Below are positions 14,647-25,014 of a stretch of DNA of 64,000 nucleotides, piece after piece. The notes beneath the pieces were generated by a model. That model was given only the letters and a program-made list of their open reading frames with translations, searched no databases and was not told where the DNA came from. The position numbers and the translations under genes were made by a program. The stretch lies in contig CAMOEI010000002.1 of NCBI GenBank assembly GCA_946612115.1, positions 1 to 64,000 of the forward strand. Reading direction: 5' to 3'. The stretch's first letter is position 1, and each line of letters opens with the position of its first letter. This stretch comes from an uncultured Caryophanales bacterium. Its GTDB lineage: Bacteria > Bacillota_I > Bacilli_A > RFN20 > CAG-826.

Positions 14647-16650
14647 ATGAAAAAGACACTTCGCTTATTAATAACCTCGTTAATCGTCTTGACTCCTTTA
14701 ACTGCGTGTAGTAATGCCGCTCCTAGTGAACAAACTAGTAATGTGAGAGTCGAAAGTGTTTCATTAAATAAAAAAGAACTATCTTTACATGTTGGAGATG
14801 AGTTTACTTTAGTAGCAACTATTTCTCCAATTGATGCGACCAATAAATCAGTTAGATTCCAATCCTCAAATAATAGTGTTGCTACTATTTCTAGTAGTGG
14901 ACTAGTTGTCGCAAAAAAGATTGGAAAATCTTCTTTATCAGTTATTACTTTAGATGGTTCTAAAGCTGCGGTTTGTAAACTTACAGTTGTTGATGATAGT
15001 TCACCTGTTGATCCTGTTGATCCAGTAGATCCAGAAGAAGATCTATGCACAATATCTTTTAACTCTAATGGTGGAACTGGATATATGAGTCCAGTCACTG
15101 ATATTAATAGAGGTAGTCCATATACCGCTCCTAGCTGCAGTTTTACTCCACCAACAAATAAAGAATTTGCGGGTTGGAAAATAGATAACGCTGGCGCATT
15201 ATTACCGGTTGGTAACGTTATTTATATCACCGGCGATTGTGTTTTCTATGCGCAGTGGACTGATTCATATGACCCAGATAATCCTAATTATTTTGATGAG
15301 CATGATTTAACCATGCAAGATTATACGGTCTTACATTGTTGGAGCTGGAAGATGAGTGAAATTCAAGCTAATCTTGATAAAATCAAGAACGCTGGATTTA
15401 AGAGCATTCAAATCTCCCCAATGCAACCTCAATTAGATTATTATTACGATCCAAATTACGCCAAATGGGAAGACCAGTGGTGGAAGTTATATCAACCTCT
15501 TGGATTTACTATCGCAACGGGCAATAATCAAAACGTTTTAGGTAATAAAGATGATTTAAGAAATCTATGCTCTTCCGCTAGTCAAAAAGGCATCAAGATT
15601 ATCGTCGATGTTGTCGCTAACCATTTAGCGGGTGGAAACGATAAACAATTAAACTGGAATGTTCAAAATATTGAACCTGAAATCTATAACCAAAATTTAA
15701 TTCATACATTAGGAAATAAAACCGCTGCTCAAGATCCTACATACAATTCTCACACTGATTGGATAGTTCAAGGCGCGATTGGAGGATTCCCTGATTTACA
15801 AACTGAAAATCCAATTGTTCAAAATCGTGTTCTTTCATTATTGAAAGAATATATTGATGTTGGAGTCTCTGGATTTAGATTTGATGCTGCTAAACATATC
15901 GAAACCCCTGATGATGGAGAATACGCTAGTAATTTCTGGCCAACTGTTTTAAATGGGGCAACCGAATACGCTACAAATAAAGGAAAAGATAAACCATATT
16001 ATTACGGAGAAATTTTAACCACTCCTGGCACTAAGCGTAGTTTCGACTGGTATACAAAGTATATGTCAGTGACTGATGATGAAGAAGGAACTAAAGTCAT
16101 TGATGCGGTTAATAACCACGCTGTTGGTCCAGTTGCGTATACTTCTAGATATAAAACCACTTTAGAAGGTAAATATCTTATGCTATGGGGAGAATCTCAT
16201 GATACCTACGCTAATACTTGGGGTTATACAAAAGATATGGATCAAGAAGCAATTGATAAAGCTTATGTCTTACAAACTACTAGAGCAAGAGCGAACTCTT
16301 TATATTTCTCGCGCGCTACACATAATACGATTATAGGTACAGCAACTTCAGATGCCTATTCATCTAATCTAATCAAATGCGCAAATAACTTTCACTCTAA
16401 ATTAGTGAATTTAAAAGAGAATATCTTTGAAAGTGAAGGATGTTACGTTAATGAAAGAGGGACTAGAGGGATTGCTGTTATTAGAATGGCTAATACTTCT
16501 GGTAATGTCACTATTTCTCTACAAAATGTAAAAGAAGGAACGTACATAAATTTATTAGACGGTAAATCCTATACCGTTACAAATAAAACAGTTACTCTTT
16601 CTCTTGTGGACGATATTGCTTTATTAATTAGAAGCGATATTAATCAATAA
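14647..16650 (+). CDS. Secreted alpha-amylase lipoprotein: Big_2 + InlB repeat + GH13
   Basis: Hydrolyses alpha-1,4-glucans outside the cell. The 667 residues read: a lipoprotein signal (LTAC, Cys21), a Big_2 Ig-like domain (about 35-115), a PVDPVDPVDP linker, a Listeria-Bacteroides (InlB B) repeat with FNSNGGTG and FYAQW (132-205), then a GH13 barrel. The catalytic residues fit D413 (GFRFDAAKH), E455 (YYGEIL) and D519 (GESHD). The barrel is of the compact bacterial type with VDVVANH. It is the last gene before the terminator at 16672 and appears to share the Rnf-cls-HAD transcript. Confidence 0.92.
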   Translation: MKKTLRLLITSLIVLTPLTACSNAAPSEQTSNVRVESVSLNKKELSLHVGDEFTLVATISPIDATNKSVRFQSSNNSVATISSSGLVVAKKIGKSSLSVITLDGSKAAVCKLTVVDDSSPVDPVDPVDPEEDLCTISFNSNGGTGYMSPVTDINRGSPYTAPSCSFTPPTNKEFAGWKIDNAGALLPVGNVIYITGDCVFYAQWTDSYDPDNPNYFDEHDLTMQDYTVLHCWSWKMSEIQANLDKIKNAGFKSIQISPMQPQLDYYYDPNYAKWEDQWWKLYQPLGFTIATGNNQNVLGNKDDLRNLCSSASQKGIKIIVDVVANHLAGGNDKQLNWNVQNIEPEIYNQNLIHTLGNKTAAQDPTYNSHTDWIVQGAIGGFPDLQTENPIVQNRVLSLLKEYIDVGVSGFRFDAAKHIETPDDGEYASNFWPTVLNGATEYATNKGKDKPYYYGEILTTPGTKRSFDWYTKYMSVTDDEEGTKVIDAVNNHAVGPVAYTSRYKTTLEGKYLMLWGESHDTYANTWGYTKDMDQEAIDKAYVLQTTRARANSLYFSRATHNTIIGTATSDAYSSNLIKCANNFHSKLVNLKENIFESEGCYVNERGTRGIAVIRMANTSGNVTISLQNVKEGTYINLLDGKSYTVTNKTVTLSLVDDIALLIRSDINQ

Positions 16651-16671
16651 TAAATAATATATATAAGGAAT

Positions 16672-16698
16672 AATTAGGCGAAAAAAGCCTAATTTTTT
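16672..16698 (+). terminator. Intrinsic terminator after the amylase
   Basis: An 8-bp perfect stem (16672-16679 with 16687-16694), GAAAAAA loop and a T run. It ends the Rnf-to-amylase transcript and separates it from the RNA gene downstream. Confidence 0.85.
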
Positions 16699-16748
16699 CA
16701 TACAAAAAACAATAAAAAATAAATATTTAACAAAAAAATATAAAAAAT

Positions 16749-16771
16749 AAAGTAATACTTAGTATTACTTT
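16749..16771. promoter_or_regulatory. 23-bp perfect palindrome upstream of the RNA promoter
   Basis: AAAGTAATACT and its exact inverse complement flank a single central T. It ends 35 bp before the -35 box of the RNA gene, inside very A-rich DNA. It could be an operator or an UP-like element; no T tract follows that would make it a terminator. Confidence 0.5.
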
Positions 16772-16805
16772 GAAAAGTATTTTATAAAAAAATTAAAAAA
16801 ACCGC

Positions 16806-16834
16806 TTGACGAAAATAATAAAAAAGCACATACT
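16806..16834 (+). promoter_or_regulatory. Promoter of the large structured RNA
   Basis: TTGACG (16806-16811), 17 bp, CATACT (16829-16834). The predicted start is near 16841, right at the first hairpin of the RNA. The -35 is strong (5 of 6) and the -10 moderate (4 of 6). Upstream DNA is A-tract rich. Confidence 0.6.
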
Positions 16835-16902
16835 AGATGTCACCAACACCCGAAAGGGCAGTTGGGGAGAACTAAACAACGATAGTTGTTTAATAGGCTC
16901 GA

Positions 16903-17236
16903 GACTAGATAAGACAATCGCCGCCAAAGAAGTTGACACAGCGACAGTGAGATTAAAGAAGAAATTCAAAAGCTCACCAAAAATAAAGCGATTGCACTAG
17001 CACGAATGCTTAGCAATAAGTATTCAAGGTGATTCCTCCCTGCTTGCAGTGGATGATGAGTTAGAACTTAACATCGTAATGCCACCACCTGACACGAACG
17101 AAGAGGAATGAAGACGAAGGCTAATAACCCCGCCATAATGACCAGATCACGCTACAGTCAACTCAAAACGTGACGCAATCGATTGAAGAAATCTTCGGAA
17201 AATCAATCGTAGAAGCCTAAGGTCCTAAAGTTTAGC
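16903..17236 (+). repeat. RNA repeat unit 1
   Basis: Begins with GACTAGATAAG (16903-16913). Holds GATTGCACTAGCA (about 16990-17002), CCTC...TGG around a CTGC/GCAG hairpin, the GTTAGAACTTAAC hairpin closed by GAT/ATC (17055-17075), GACACGA (17091-17097), GGCTAATAAC (17119-17128) and a TCACG/CGTGA helix (17147-17173). Confidence 0.7.
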
Positions 17237-17552
17237 TCTAAAAAGATGACCAACCATTAACGACAACGTTGATAGTCAGGTTCCAGAATTAAATCTTCTG
17301 GTCAATGGTCGCAAAGAGCTGTCTCAATCGCAAGAAAGAGACAAACGGCAAACCTCCCTCCTAGAGTGGTCGCTGAGTTAGAACTTAACAGCTTAAAAAA
17401 CCACCGCCGGACACGATCAAAGAGGCAAAAACAAAATTCTAGAAGCTAATTGCTACTAGAGAAACCTAAATCTCATTACTCAACTCAAAGTGAGATGATA
17501 ACGGGCAAACTAGAAAAGGAAAACCCGCGAAGAAAAGGACTAAAGAGTTCAA
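17237..17552 (+). repeat. RNA repeat unit 2
   Basis: The most diverged unit at its start (AAGATGACC in place of GACTAGATAAG). It keeps GGTCAATGGTCGCA (17300-17313), CCTC...TGG, the GTTAGAACTTAAC hairpin now closed by GCT/AGC (17372-17392), GGACACGA (17409-17416), AGCTAATTGC (17444-17453) and an ATCTCA/TGAGAT helix (17470-17496). Confidence 0.7.
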
Positions 17553-17820
17553 GACTAGATAAGTCAACCAACTCCTCTAAATTGATATGGGAGTTCCATG
17601 GAATTAAAAAAAGTGGTCAATGGTTGCACTAGCAAAGGTTCCCTGAAAAGGTGAACATCGGTACGATCCTCACTGATAGCTTGCTATCACTGGTCGCTGC
17701 GTTAGAGTTTGACAGCGTAAACCCAGTACCGGACAAGACGAAAAGGATAACAGCCTCGAAGCTAATAACTAGAGGAAGCTGGCCACCAGTTCGCTAATCA
17801 GTTTAAAACGAACTGCCAAC
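17553..17820 (+). repeat. RNA repeat unit 3
   Basis: Begins GACTAGATAAG (17553-17563). Holds GGTCAATGGTTGCACTAGCA (17615-17634), a GAAA-tetraloop hairpin (17638-17656), CCTC...TGG around GATAGC/GCTATC, a GTTAGAGTTTGAC hairpin closed by GCT/AGC, GGACAAGA (17731-17738), AGCTAATAAC (17760-17769) and an AGTTCG/CGAACT helix (17788-17814). Confidence 0.7.
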
Positions 17821-17909
17821 AAGAAGCACCACCAGCCAAAAGGAACTTAACTTATACTTCTGTGTCGCAGGGATTCATCCCTGCCACAGGGCATCGGTTA
17901 AAAACAGTA

Positions 17910-17936
17910 GAGGCTATTCAGAGCCTCATTTTTTTT
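17910..17936 (+). terminator. Intrinsic terminator of the large RNA
   Basis: GAGGCT (17910-17915), a 6-nt loop and AGCCTC (17922-17927), then a run of eight T followed by a second T run. It lies 55 bp before the ZIP gene, so it could also act as an attenuator for that gene. Confidence 0.88.
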
Positions 17937-17990
17937 ACTTTTTTTTGCATATTATTTGCGTCTTTATAAGATAAAGCATTTAATAAAAGC

Positions 17991-18767
17991 ATGAGTCCAA
18001 TGATTATCCTTTGCTTATTTATCCCATTAATTGGCACCACTCTAGGTAGTGCAATGGTTTTCTTTTTAAAAAAAGAGATTAATCCTAAATTACAAAAGAT
18101 CTTAATGGGCTTTGCTAGTGGAGTAATGATCGCAGCTAGTATATGGAGTTTACTTCAACCTGCAATTGATCATTATGAAAAAGGCGACTTTAGAGCATGG
18201 CTAGTTCCTGCAATAGGTTTCCTTATTGGTGTAGGATTTTTACTTTTACTAGACTATGTCATTCCTCATATTCATATCAATAAAGGTGAAGAAGGAGTAA
18301 AAACAAATAAGATTGGCAAAACCGCAAAGATGATGTTTGCGGTTACATTACATAATGTTCCAGAAGGTTTAGCGGTTGGAGTAGTTATCTCTAGCGCCTT
18401 AACTCATAACATAAATGAAAGTGCGATGTTAGCTCTTGCGATTGGTATTGCTATTCAAAATTTCCCAGAAGGCGCGATTATCTCAATGCCTCTAAAAGAA
18501 GAAGGAATGAGCAAATTTAAGGCCTTTTTGCTAGGATTTTTATCAGGAGTAGTGGAACCAATAGCTTCATTATTTGCTCTTTTATTAACTGGAGTAGCGA
18601 ATGTTGTGCTTCCTTATGCATTAGCTTTTGCGGCAGGCGCGATGATCTATGTTGTTGTTGAAGAACTTATTCCAGAAGCTAATGAAGGACCTCATTCAAA
18701 TCTTGCCACTATCGGATTAGCAATAGGCTTTGTAATCATGATGGTTCTTGATGTTGCATTAAGTTAG
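17991..18767 (+). CDS. ZIP-family divalent metal transporter
   Basis: 258 residues with about eight TM helices. It imports Zn2+, Fe2+ or Mn2+ in related proteins. The metal-site signatures are HNVPEGLAVG in TM4 and NFPEGAIIS in TM5, both with the conserved P-E-G and histidine/glutamate ligands. A cytoplasmic loop with HIHINKGEEG separates the TM3 and TM4 segments. It follows the terminator of the large RNA by 55 bp. A poor TTGCAT/TAAGAT pair (17945-17972) could be its own promoter, and there is no strong Shine-Dalgarno. The exact metal cannot be decided from sequence. Confidence 0.9.
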   Translation: MSPMIILCLFIPLIGTTLGSAMVFFLKKEINPKLQKILMGFASGVMIAASIWSLLQPAIDHYEKGDFRAWLVPAIGFLIGVGFLLLLDYVIPHIHINKGEEGVKTNKIGKTAKMMFAVTLHNVPEGLAVGVVISSALTHNINESAMLALAIGIAIQNFPEGAIISMPLKEEGMSKFKAFLLGFLSGVVEPIASLFALLLTGVANVVLPYALAFAAGAMIYVVVEELIPEANEGPHSNLATIGLAIGFVIMMVLDVALS

Positions 18768-23226: not shown

Positions 23227-25014
23227 ATGAAAAGAAAAGTTTTTAATTTCTCTTTGTTGGCAAGCGTAAGTTTACTTGTTTTTGGTGTGACTGGACTTTC
23301 TAGTTGTGCTAACTCTTCAGTTGCCGTTCCACGCGTCAAACTTGAAGCGTCCACAATTAATATGGAAGTCGGTGATACAAAACCAATTAAACTATCTGTC
23401 CAAAAGGGATATGAGAACTATCAACAAAGATGGTTCACATCAAATGAGAACGTTGTTCACATCATTAACAGTTCAAAAGGTTATGTAGCCGCTGTTGGTG
23501 AAGGAAGTGCAACAGTTACCGCCGCTATTGCAGGCGCGTATGTTGATTGTACAGTTCTCGTTACAGATAACGGAGGAGATCCAAGTGCTGCGAGATTTAC
23601 ATTATCTCCAACATCGGTCTCAATCGAAGAAGGAAAAACCGCTCAATTAACATGGAATGTTAATCCTTCTAGTACAACCATTGCCTTCTCAGTAGACAAT
23701 TCTGCTGTTGCAACAGTTGATGAAATGGGACTTATTACAGGTGTTGCTGCTGGAAGCTGTGTTGTTACCGCAGTTGCATCTAATGGACTAACTAGAAGAT
23801 GTACCGTCACTGTTAAGGGCTCTGGTGGAGAAGGCGGAGGAGGCACTGATGATATCGGTGTTAGCTCCAACTTAGGATATACAGGATCATTATCTGTTGG
23901 TGCTCCTGAAAAACAAATGGCCTTCATGCAAGAACTCTTAAGAGACTTCAATAGATTAACCAATTCTTCAATTAAATTTGATGTCACTCAAGTCGAAGAA
24001 GGTAAAGGTGCTGCTCAATTCGCTAATGCGGGTGCTGCCCCAGCTATCTTCCCATACGCTAGTGACCAAATCGTCGATTTCCAAAACTTAGGTGCTTTAA
24101 CATCCCTACGTACCGATAATGTTAAATGGATTAGAGATAACATGCTCCCAGACGCTTTAACTGCAGCTAGAGTTGGTACCGCCACACTTGGTTACCCATT
24201 CACTTCAGATAATGGTGTTGTTATGTTCTATGACGGAAGTGTTGTTACTGATCCATCCTCCATTGATACGTTTGATGAATTATTACAACTCGCATCACAA
24301 AAAGGTCTCGAGGTTGACTTTAAGTTAACTGAAGGCTTCTATGCTGCTGGTGCTTTACACTCATATACCAAAGGTAAATCATTATATACTTTAACCCCAA
24401 CCAATACTGGTTACAAATCAACCGCTAACTTCAATAGTGAAGCAGGTAATAAGGCTATTAGAGTCTGTTATGACTTGCTCACCGATGATAGAGAAGTTAT
24501 CAGATTTGGTGATGGTGCCCCAGGTACCTCTGGTATTCTTGCAACAATCGTTGATACTTCTTATGTCCAATCCTTCAAAACATTAATGGGCAATAAGTAC
24601 GCTGTTGCACCTCTTCCTGCTGTTGATAACGAAGGAACAAGAATGGGTGCCTATTTAGGCTACAAATTCTATGGTGTTAACCAAACCCTTGATAACGACA
24701 GCAAGACTAAAGCACATGATGTTGCTAAATTCTTAGTCAGTGCATATTCTCAAACCAAGAGATTTAATAGATTCCAAAGCAAACCAACCATCACAAGCTT
24801 ACAAGCGATGGTCGCTAGTGAACCACATATTGCTGCGTTGAATGAACAAGCTAAATTCAATTCAACCGTCTTATTAACTGCCGCGGGCAGTGAATTATGG
24901 AGTGCAACTTCTAAAGCTTTAAATAAGATTTACGAAGAAACATTTACTCCAACCGATCAGAATTACACCAGCGTTCTCCAAGAACTCGATGCAACTCTTA
25001 AAGTGACAAAATAA
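23227..25014 (+). CDS. Maltodextrin-type solute-binding lipoprotein carrying two Big_2 domains
   Basis: 595 residues. A lipoprotein signal (LSSC) is followed by two Ig-like Big_2 domains (about 37-118 and 122-198), a Gly/Glu linker and an ABC-transporter solute-binding domain of the maltose/maltodextrin type (about 205-595). Landmarks of the binding domain are FMQELLRDFNRLTN, QVEEGKGAAQF, LGYPFTSDNGVVMFYDGSVV and MGAYLGYKFYGVNQ. Standard proteins of this family lack the Ig domains, which here would push the binder away from the membrane. It heads the importer operon (11 bp to the permease), so maltodextrin is the likely ligand. Confidence 0.9.
   Translation: MKRKVFNFSLLASVSLLVFGVTGLSSCANSSVAVPRVKLEASTINMEVGDTKPIKLSVQKGYENYQQRWFTSNENVVHIINSSKGYVAAVGEGSATVTAAIAGAYVDCTVLVTDNGGDPSAARFTLSPTSVSIEEGKTAQLTWNVNPSSTTIAFSVDNSAVATVDEMGLITGVAAGSCVVTAVASNGLTRRCTVTVKGSGGEGGGGTDDIGVSSNLGYTGSLSVGAPEKQMAFMQELLRDFNRLTNSSIKFDVTQVEEGKGAAQFANAGAAPAIFPYASDQIVDFQNLGALTSLRTDNVKWIRDNMLPDALTAARVGTATLGYPFTSDNGVVMFYDGSVVTDPSSIDTFDELLQLASQKGLEVDFKLTEGFYAAGALHSYTKGKSLYTLTPTNTGYKSTANFNSEAGNKAIRVCYDLLTDDREVIRFGDGAPGTSGILATIVDTSYVQSFKTLMGNKYAVAPLPAVDNEGTRMGAYLGYKFYGVNQTLDNDSKTKAHDVAKFLVSAYSQTKRFNRFQSKPTITSLQAMVASEPHIAALNEQAKFNSTVLLTAAGSELWSATSKALNKIYEETFTPTDQNYTSVLQELDATLKVTK

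Follow-up and report, generated by a model that had tools for sequence, protein, structure and literature searches.

The whole stretch of DNA analysed here, 64,000 nucleotides long and called the window below, carries an RNA gene of ~1.1 kb at positions 16841-17936, between an alpha-amylase gene that ends at 16650 and a ZIP transporter gene that starts at 17991. A preliminary description had proposed a structured RNA of about this length, composed of three tandem homologous units and lying in an interval without a plausible protein gene, with a promoter before it and a terminator after it. All of this was borne out: the three-unit organisation holds in about 40 homologous loci, there is no plausible open reading frame within 16651-17990, where the longest forward frame is 64 amino acids, and promoter and terminator are both present. 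The parts of the gene are as follows.

16806..16834, forward strand: sigma-70-type promoter, TTGACG (16806-16811) and CATACT (16829-16834) with a 17-nt spacer; predicted start near 16841
16841..16892, forward strand: 5' leader, a variable hairpin and a GAUA-loop hairpin (16874-16880/16885-16891)
16893..17232, forward strand: unit 1, with arm A (P1 16903-08/16997-17001, P2 16913-20/16989-95), a cow-rumen-1 domain, hairpin B (17146-51/17169-74) and a PK3 acceptor (17228-17232)
17233..17549, forward strand: unit 2, with P1 (17234-38/17316-20), P2 (17245-51/17307-12), a cow-rumen-1 domain, hairpin B (17470-76/17490-96) and a PK3 acceptor (17545-17549)
17550..17847, forward strand: unit 3, with P1 (17548-58/17629-37), P2 (17563-70/17621-27), a cow-rumen-1 domain with an extra stem (17674-79/17684-89), hairpin C (17754-61/17769-75), hairpin B (17787-93/17809-15) and a PK3 acceptor (17843-17847)
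17848..17936, forward strand: 3' tail and intrinsic terminator, stem 17910-15/17922-27 (GAGGCT/AGCCTC) and T-run 17929-36 (T8)

The limits of the gene were examined in an alignment of 37 of the 39 complete three-unit loci, those with enough flanking sequence, in which the conserved block runs from promoter through terminator and the flanks are unconserved. A TTGAC/TTGCA-17-[g/c]ATACT-like promoter recurs in nearly every aligned locus. The GAUA-loop hairpin of the leader (helix 4 of the structure tested below) is paired in 99.6% of cells, shows double-sided change in six of its seven pairs and contributes three covarying pairs to the tree-null covariation analysis. At the other end the tail sequence is conserved across loci and a terminator is retained, while its stem varies in sequence. 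Judged from its sequence, the gene is a stand-alone non-coding transcription unit, bounded by a strong promoter and a terminator of its own; its transcription is an inference, made in the absence of expression data.

A reading frame conserved in homologues would have refuted the RNA interpretation, and none was found. No forward frame is conserved across the homologous loci, 1-nt events make up 174 of the 266 deletions in the alignment and the alignment entropy lacks three-base or codon periodicity, and for these reasons a protein gene was rejected. An antisense frame of at least 45 amino acids, covering one column in 71% of rows, also lacks periodicity and was judged to be a by-product of the conserved sequence.

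The preliminary description had suggested a cmscan search against Rfam and had noted that a hit to a known class would count against a novel RNA. GOLLD, ROOL, OLE, HEARO and raiA were unmatched, but a known family, RF02946 or cow-rumen-1, was found once in each unit.

17046..17106, forward strand: cow-rumen-1 (RF02946) match in unit 1, 72.5 bits
17363..17425, forward strand: cow-rumen-1 (RF02946) match in unit 2, 72.2 bits
17687..17746, forward strand: cow-rumen-1 (RF02946) match in unit 3, 75.3 bits

These three matches are independent, extend over the whole 61-nt model and have E values of 4e-16 to 4e-15. Membership of the family by gathering score is met (72-75 bits against 53.4), while the whole gene exceeds the family as defined; because the match is to a 61-nt fragment of each unit, it leaves the whole gene unexplained. 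Rfam types RF02946 as a lone ~61-nt small RNA (Gene; sRNA), and these loci do not fit that typing, since 117 of the 143 matches in the order sit in triplets within three-unit loci, 15 more lie in five-unit loci, and conservation spans ~1.1 kb. Here the 61-nt element is one part of a ~320-nt unit that occurs three times, and the Rfam model lacks the arm, hairpin B, the leader, the tail and the three pseudoknots PK1, PK2 and PK3. Besides RF02946, no convincing Rfam family was found in 16800-17960 even at E <= 10, only sub-threshold chance matches; ROOL, GOLLD and OLE gave no match in the window at gathering score and none at E <= 10 in that interval, and the same relaxed search there found no self-splicing intron, HEARO or raiA. 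Neither cow-rumen-1 nor RF02946 is mentioned in the literature searched, a search that did not take in the presumed original description of the family. The large RNA was previously unrecognised, the database "small RNA" being only a piece of each module, and it represents a new class of large RNA in which a known 61-nt Rfam motif occurs three times.

RF02946 occurs in 44 of the 279 genomes of the order, all of them in one family and spread over ten genera. The matches fall into 51 arrays: 39 are three-unit and three are five-unit arrays, two consist of two units, and seven are single units. Contig ends truncate both of the two-unit arrays as well as two of the seven singles. Motif spacings in the 39 three-unit loci are about 290-376 nt, and in the window the direct repeats are spaced by 313-324 nt, much as first described (315-325 nt). 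When searched over the class, RF02946 returned only the same family, as did a 138-position model run over class and phylum samples, whose remaining matches (20-22 bits, E 0.04-0.08 per genome) are taken as chance. Those named records that state a source are metagenome-assembled genomes of Bacilli from the rumen, reticulum and omasum. One complete three-unit RNA (L148:616-1768) lies on a contig of a rumen genome labelled Alphaproteobacteria, probably a misbinned contig.

With the 3' tail alone as a probe the RNA was detected in further genomes; within the genus it was found in 11 of 13 good genomes. In one genome (G219) nothing but two tails of the RNA is present, each truncated by a contig end, and part of the apparent absences is thus attributable to assembly breaks or loci at contig ends. 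Ten loci lie within 350 nt of a contig end where 2.0 are expected, a fivefold excess which suggests multiple near-identical or strain-variable copies. The loci cut in this way include L077, L078, L082, L089, L096, L048, L057 and L054. Two individual arrays are unusual: one of two copies in a single genome (L097:6020-6899, genome G169) is without the conserved 3' tail and terminator and is possibly decaying, and on contig 53 of genome G211 (L068) a three-unit and a five-unit array stand in tandem with motifs ~1.7 kb apart.

The secondary structure of the RNA rests on covariation, without which above background the original proposal would have failed. In an alignment with a median pairwise identity of 66%, 21 column pairs covary at E <= 0.05 against a null in which substitutions were shuffled on the tree, every one of these pairs being Watson-Crick or GU compatible. 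A written structure of 234 pairs, including PK1 and PK2, was scored on a separate alignment of 38 loci and was paired in 91.2% of cells, compared with 81.0 +/- 0.2% after shuffling and at most 41.4% when slid. Double-sided change is seen in 138 of the 234 pairs (86 +/- 4 in shuffles) and the covariation score is 0.328 (0.148 +/- 0.003 shuffled, at most 0.074 slid); the slid control is generous to the structure, which was derived from the same sequences. Some minor helices fail the test and are not to be believed, namely the first hairpin of the 5' leader and helices 9, 18 and 22. The compensatory stems quoted in the preliminary description are all in the sequence: TCACG/CGTGA, ATCTCA/TGAGAT and AGTTCG/CGAACT, and GATG/CATC against GCTG/CAGC around GTTAGAACTTAAC. 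For the last of these the compensatory change stands but the name "GTTAGAACTTAAC hairpin" does not: the element is better regarded as a short helix or loop that, through the same nucleotides, pairs with a downstream strand in PK3 as well. On the sequence evidence we hold it to be practically certain that three homologous modules follow one another in the RNA, in the fixed order 1-2-3.

Each module contains three pseudoknots.

17027-30 x 17087-90, forward strand: PK1 of unit 1, an H-type pseudoknot that crosses the CCUC/GAGG helix
17346-49 x 17406-09 and 17659-62 x 17728-31, forward strand: equivalents of PK1 in units 2 and 3
16931-37 x 17157-63, forward strand: PK2 of unit 1, arm-A loop with hairpin-B loop
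17268-72 x 17480-84 and 17580-85 x 17798-803, forward strand: equivalents of PK2 in units 2 and 3
17065-69 x 17228-32, forward strand: PK3 of unit 1, pairing of the cow-rumen-1 loop with the final strand of the unit
17382-86 x 17545-49 and 17706-10 x 17843-47, forward strand: equivalents of PK3 in units 2 and 3

All three show coordinated changes that are repeated on the tree. PK1 joins a strand preceding CCUC to one preceding GACA; the 4-bp strand is found in 38/45, 44/45 and 38/42 units (84-98% of units) and in 5/5 monomers, against only 5-11% with shuffled upstream sequence, and its outer pair is G-C, A-U, C-G or U-A across units and monomers (covariation E < 0.02). PK2 is formed between GUUGA in the arm loop and UCAAC in the loop of hairpin B, with 94.7, 97.9 and 97.3% of cells paired in units 1, 2 and 3. 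Its double-sided changes, such as GUUGAC/GUCAAC to GUUAAC/GUUAAC, occur in units 1 and 3 and not in unit 2, where it is nearly invariant. In PK3 the loop is ARYUU and the partner closes the unit, which for unit 3 means the 3' tail. Here 98.2% of cells are paired, with 60 double-sided cells where shuffles give 19.6 +/- 4.2 and slid versions at most nine, and when strands were swapped among genomes none of 2000 trials reached the observed value in any of the units. Within one genome, PK3 strands taken from different units fit less well (21-79%) than those of the same unit (84-95%), so that these contacts are unit-specific.

The covarying contacts found all map inside single units of the chain, and covariation detected no base pairing between units beyond the shared junctions; a compact trimeric particle is therefore an inference. 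Covariation cannot reveal whether a contact joins parts of one chain or two different chains, and for ROOL and GOLLD, loop contacts that covariation had first brought to light turned out to be intermolecular (PMC12286853). Were contacts of the present RNA to lie between chains, they would need to link corresponding units in two molecules.

In units 1 and 2 the three loop nucleotides 17066-17068 and their equivalents covary both with PK3 and with a local helix e (helices 14 and 27 of the tested structure), and the two pairings are mutually exclusive. The region with two covariation partners is 17059-17069 in the window, with its equivalents. A switch, base triples or linked haplotypes are all possible explanations, the first two because the same loop nucleotides covary also with the local helix. 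If it were a switch, the RNA could be a sensor in which the cow-rumen-1 loop of units 1 and 2 alternates between helix e and PK3 upon binding of a ligand or partner. We consider this quite unlikely: the double covariation could also arise from linked, co-inherited haplotypes or base triples, unit 3 has no good helix e, and no constant downstream gene that might be controlled was found.

The history of the units was read from a tree of 116 units from the three-unit loci. Units sort by position and not by genome, without exception (39/39, 39/39 and 38/38), even though the nodes of units 1 and 2 have low local support (0.30 and 0.45). Units at the same position in different genomes are 67-74% identical, compared with 50-54% for different positions in one genome, and unit 3 is the most conserved, with a mean of 74% identity between genomes. 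This sorting implies that the trimer predates the divergence of the genera, unless it has spread horizontally as a unit, and we read the tree as evidence of an ancient trimer with position-specialised units that do not homogenise. Concerted evolution of the units was ruled out on the same tree, subject to the weak local support just given. The three five-unit arrays all read 1-2-1-2-3, suggesting that modules 1-2 form an extendable repeat, which module 3 and the tail terminate.

Single-unit paralogues occur in five genomes and form their own clade in the unit tree (L065, L076, L083, L084 and L093). The best preserved (L076) is ~330 nt long and has its own promoter and terminator. PK3 was seen by inspection in all five, with a compensated pair in L084, while a recognisable PK2 arm is absent from two (L065 and L093). 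The single-unit copies in G206 and G104, which are of two different genera, adjoin comFA-comFC-secA-like genes. Convergent to the single-unit RNA is, in two genomes, a gene for a small basic protein of ~105-112 amino acids without a Pfam match (L076:6265-6603, reverse strand, with an equivalent frame of cluster c47 in L093). Tandem duplication of a single-module RNA, like the surviving paralogue, is the probable origin of the three-module form.

Similar repeated modules with highly conserved loops, provided with their own promoter and terminator and extended to five units in some alleles, are also what might be expected of a multi-site binding RNA, a sponge or a 6S/CsrB-like regulator in which each unit docks the same protein and three copies provide avidity or stoichiometric sequestration. 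We rate this as possible but unlikely, since the units are not interchangeable, carrying position-specific conserved sequence with no sign of homogenisation, and since ~320 nt and three pseudoknots exceed the needs of a simple binding site.

The surroundings of the gene bear on whether it acts in cis. In the window and in several homologues a gene on the same strand begins shortly after the terminator, and ZIP-like neighbours recur in some genera, as would suit a tandem riboswitch-like leader that controls the gene after it, which in the window encodes the ZIP metal transporter. Across the loci, however, no constant class of same-strand downstream gene was found: neighbours vary among genera in kind and in strand, often lying on the opposite one, and synteny is clearly retained only within genus g26 and one subgroup of g1. 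In four congeneric genomes the closest homologues of the ZIP gene (76-78% identity) have no such RNA within 1.5 kb, on which ground a link to the ZIP gene was rejected, and a cis-acting leader now seems extremely improbable. With neighbours that are not constant and stand in both orientations, a role in trans is likely. Elsewhere in the window, at 23227-25014, is a lipoprotein resembling an ABC sugar-binding protein, with apparent N-terminal Ig-like repeats, an unusual combination, as read from its translation only.

A mobile or rapidly copied element, like those phages that carry ROOL or GOLLD, would account for the variable copy number, the excess of loci at contig ends, typical of multi-copy or strain-variable sequence, and the differing places of the RNA in congeneric genomes. 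Most copies are nevertheless flanked by chromosomal housekeeping genes, synteny is kept in g26, and phage and plasmid collections and three IMG/VR pattern scans gave no match, although these used exact patterns and could miss diverged viral relatives. An origin in a phage, plasmid or virus was rejected within that limit, and we regard a mobile-element RNA as very unlikely.

Our preferred reading, to which we assign a probability of roughly 0.6, is that of a large trans-acting RNA of three pseudoknotted modules that serves as a structural scaffold, alone or with protein, its function being inferred. Each module comprises a branched arm, a cow-rumen-1 domain closed by PK1, the contact of arm and hairpin B in PK2 and the contact of loop and closing strand in PK3. 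Since in units 1 and 2 the strand that accepts PK3 continues directly into the P1 helix of the following module, PK3 of one module may stack coaxially on the next P1 and couple the modules rigidly, giving a rigid pseudo-threefold particle. The RNA would act as a structural scaffold, by itself or with bound protein, as OLE, ROOL and GOLLD are thought to do. Direct evidence for this scaffold, be it of expression, folding, oligomerisation or a partner, is lacking. Taken separately, a trans-acting scaffold or ribonucleoprotein role falls a little short of an even chance, and assembly from RNA only is unlikely. Equally doubtful is a covalent hetero-trimer in the full sense, a duplicated single-module RNA whose specialised copies form a pseudo-symmetric RNA-only particle lengthened by insertion of 1-2; exact symmetry is made less likely by how strictly the units are specialised.

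Through this analysis an orphan 61-nt Rfam entry becomes part of a ~1.1-kb RNA, for which there is now a model of nine pseudoknots backed by covariation, along with a single-module paralogue and longer alleles. It opens the question of whether large RNAs gain quaternary structure by duplication and fusion of subunits, as proteins do, and the RNAs of one, three and five modules make this directly testable in vitro. We know of no other bacterial RNA made of position-specialised tandem modules, and of very few of such size and complexity.

Among known RNAs, the raiA-motif or ModT RNA is a compact, conserved, trans-acting non-coding RNA of Bacillota (PMC11706538). It gave no match to the present RNA at E <= 10. 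It is a single unit of ~200 nt with two pseudoknots. OLE is likewise a large conserved RNA of Bacillota, dimeric as RNA and part of a membrane ribonucleoprotein (PMC12286853, PMC11332333). It has no Rfam match to the RNA described here. To our knowledge it has no internal tandem architecture. ROOL, also found in the rumen (PMC12286853), and GOLLD are the most similar in being stand-alone bacterial RNAs that are large, ornate, pseudoknotted and of unknown function, although neither matches in sequence or structure. They are encoded by phages or prophages, often near tRNA islands, a setting not seen here, where the gene is chromosomal among housekeeping neighbours, without a phage or IMG/VR match and without a tRNA in the window. 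ROOL and GOLLD self-assemble from identical chains, whereas this RNA has three non-identical copies in one chain; if it does form a covalent hetero-trimer, gene fusion would have replaced quaternary assembly, making it an RNA counterpart of proteins with fused subunits.
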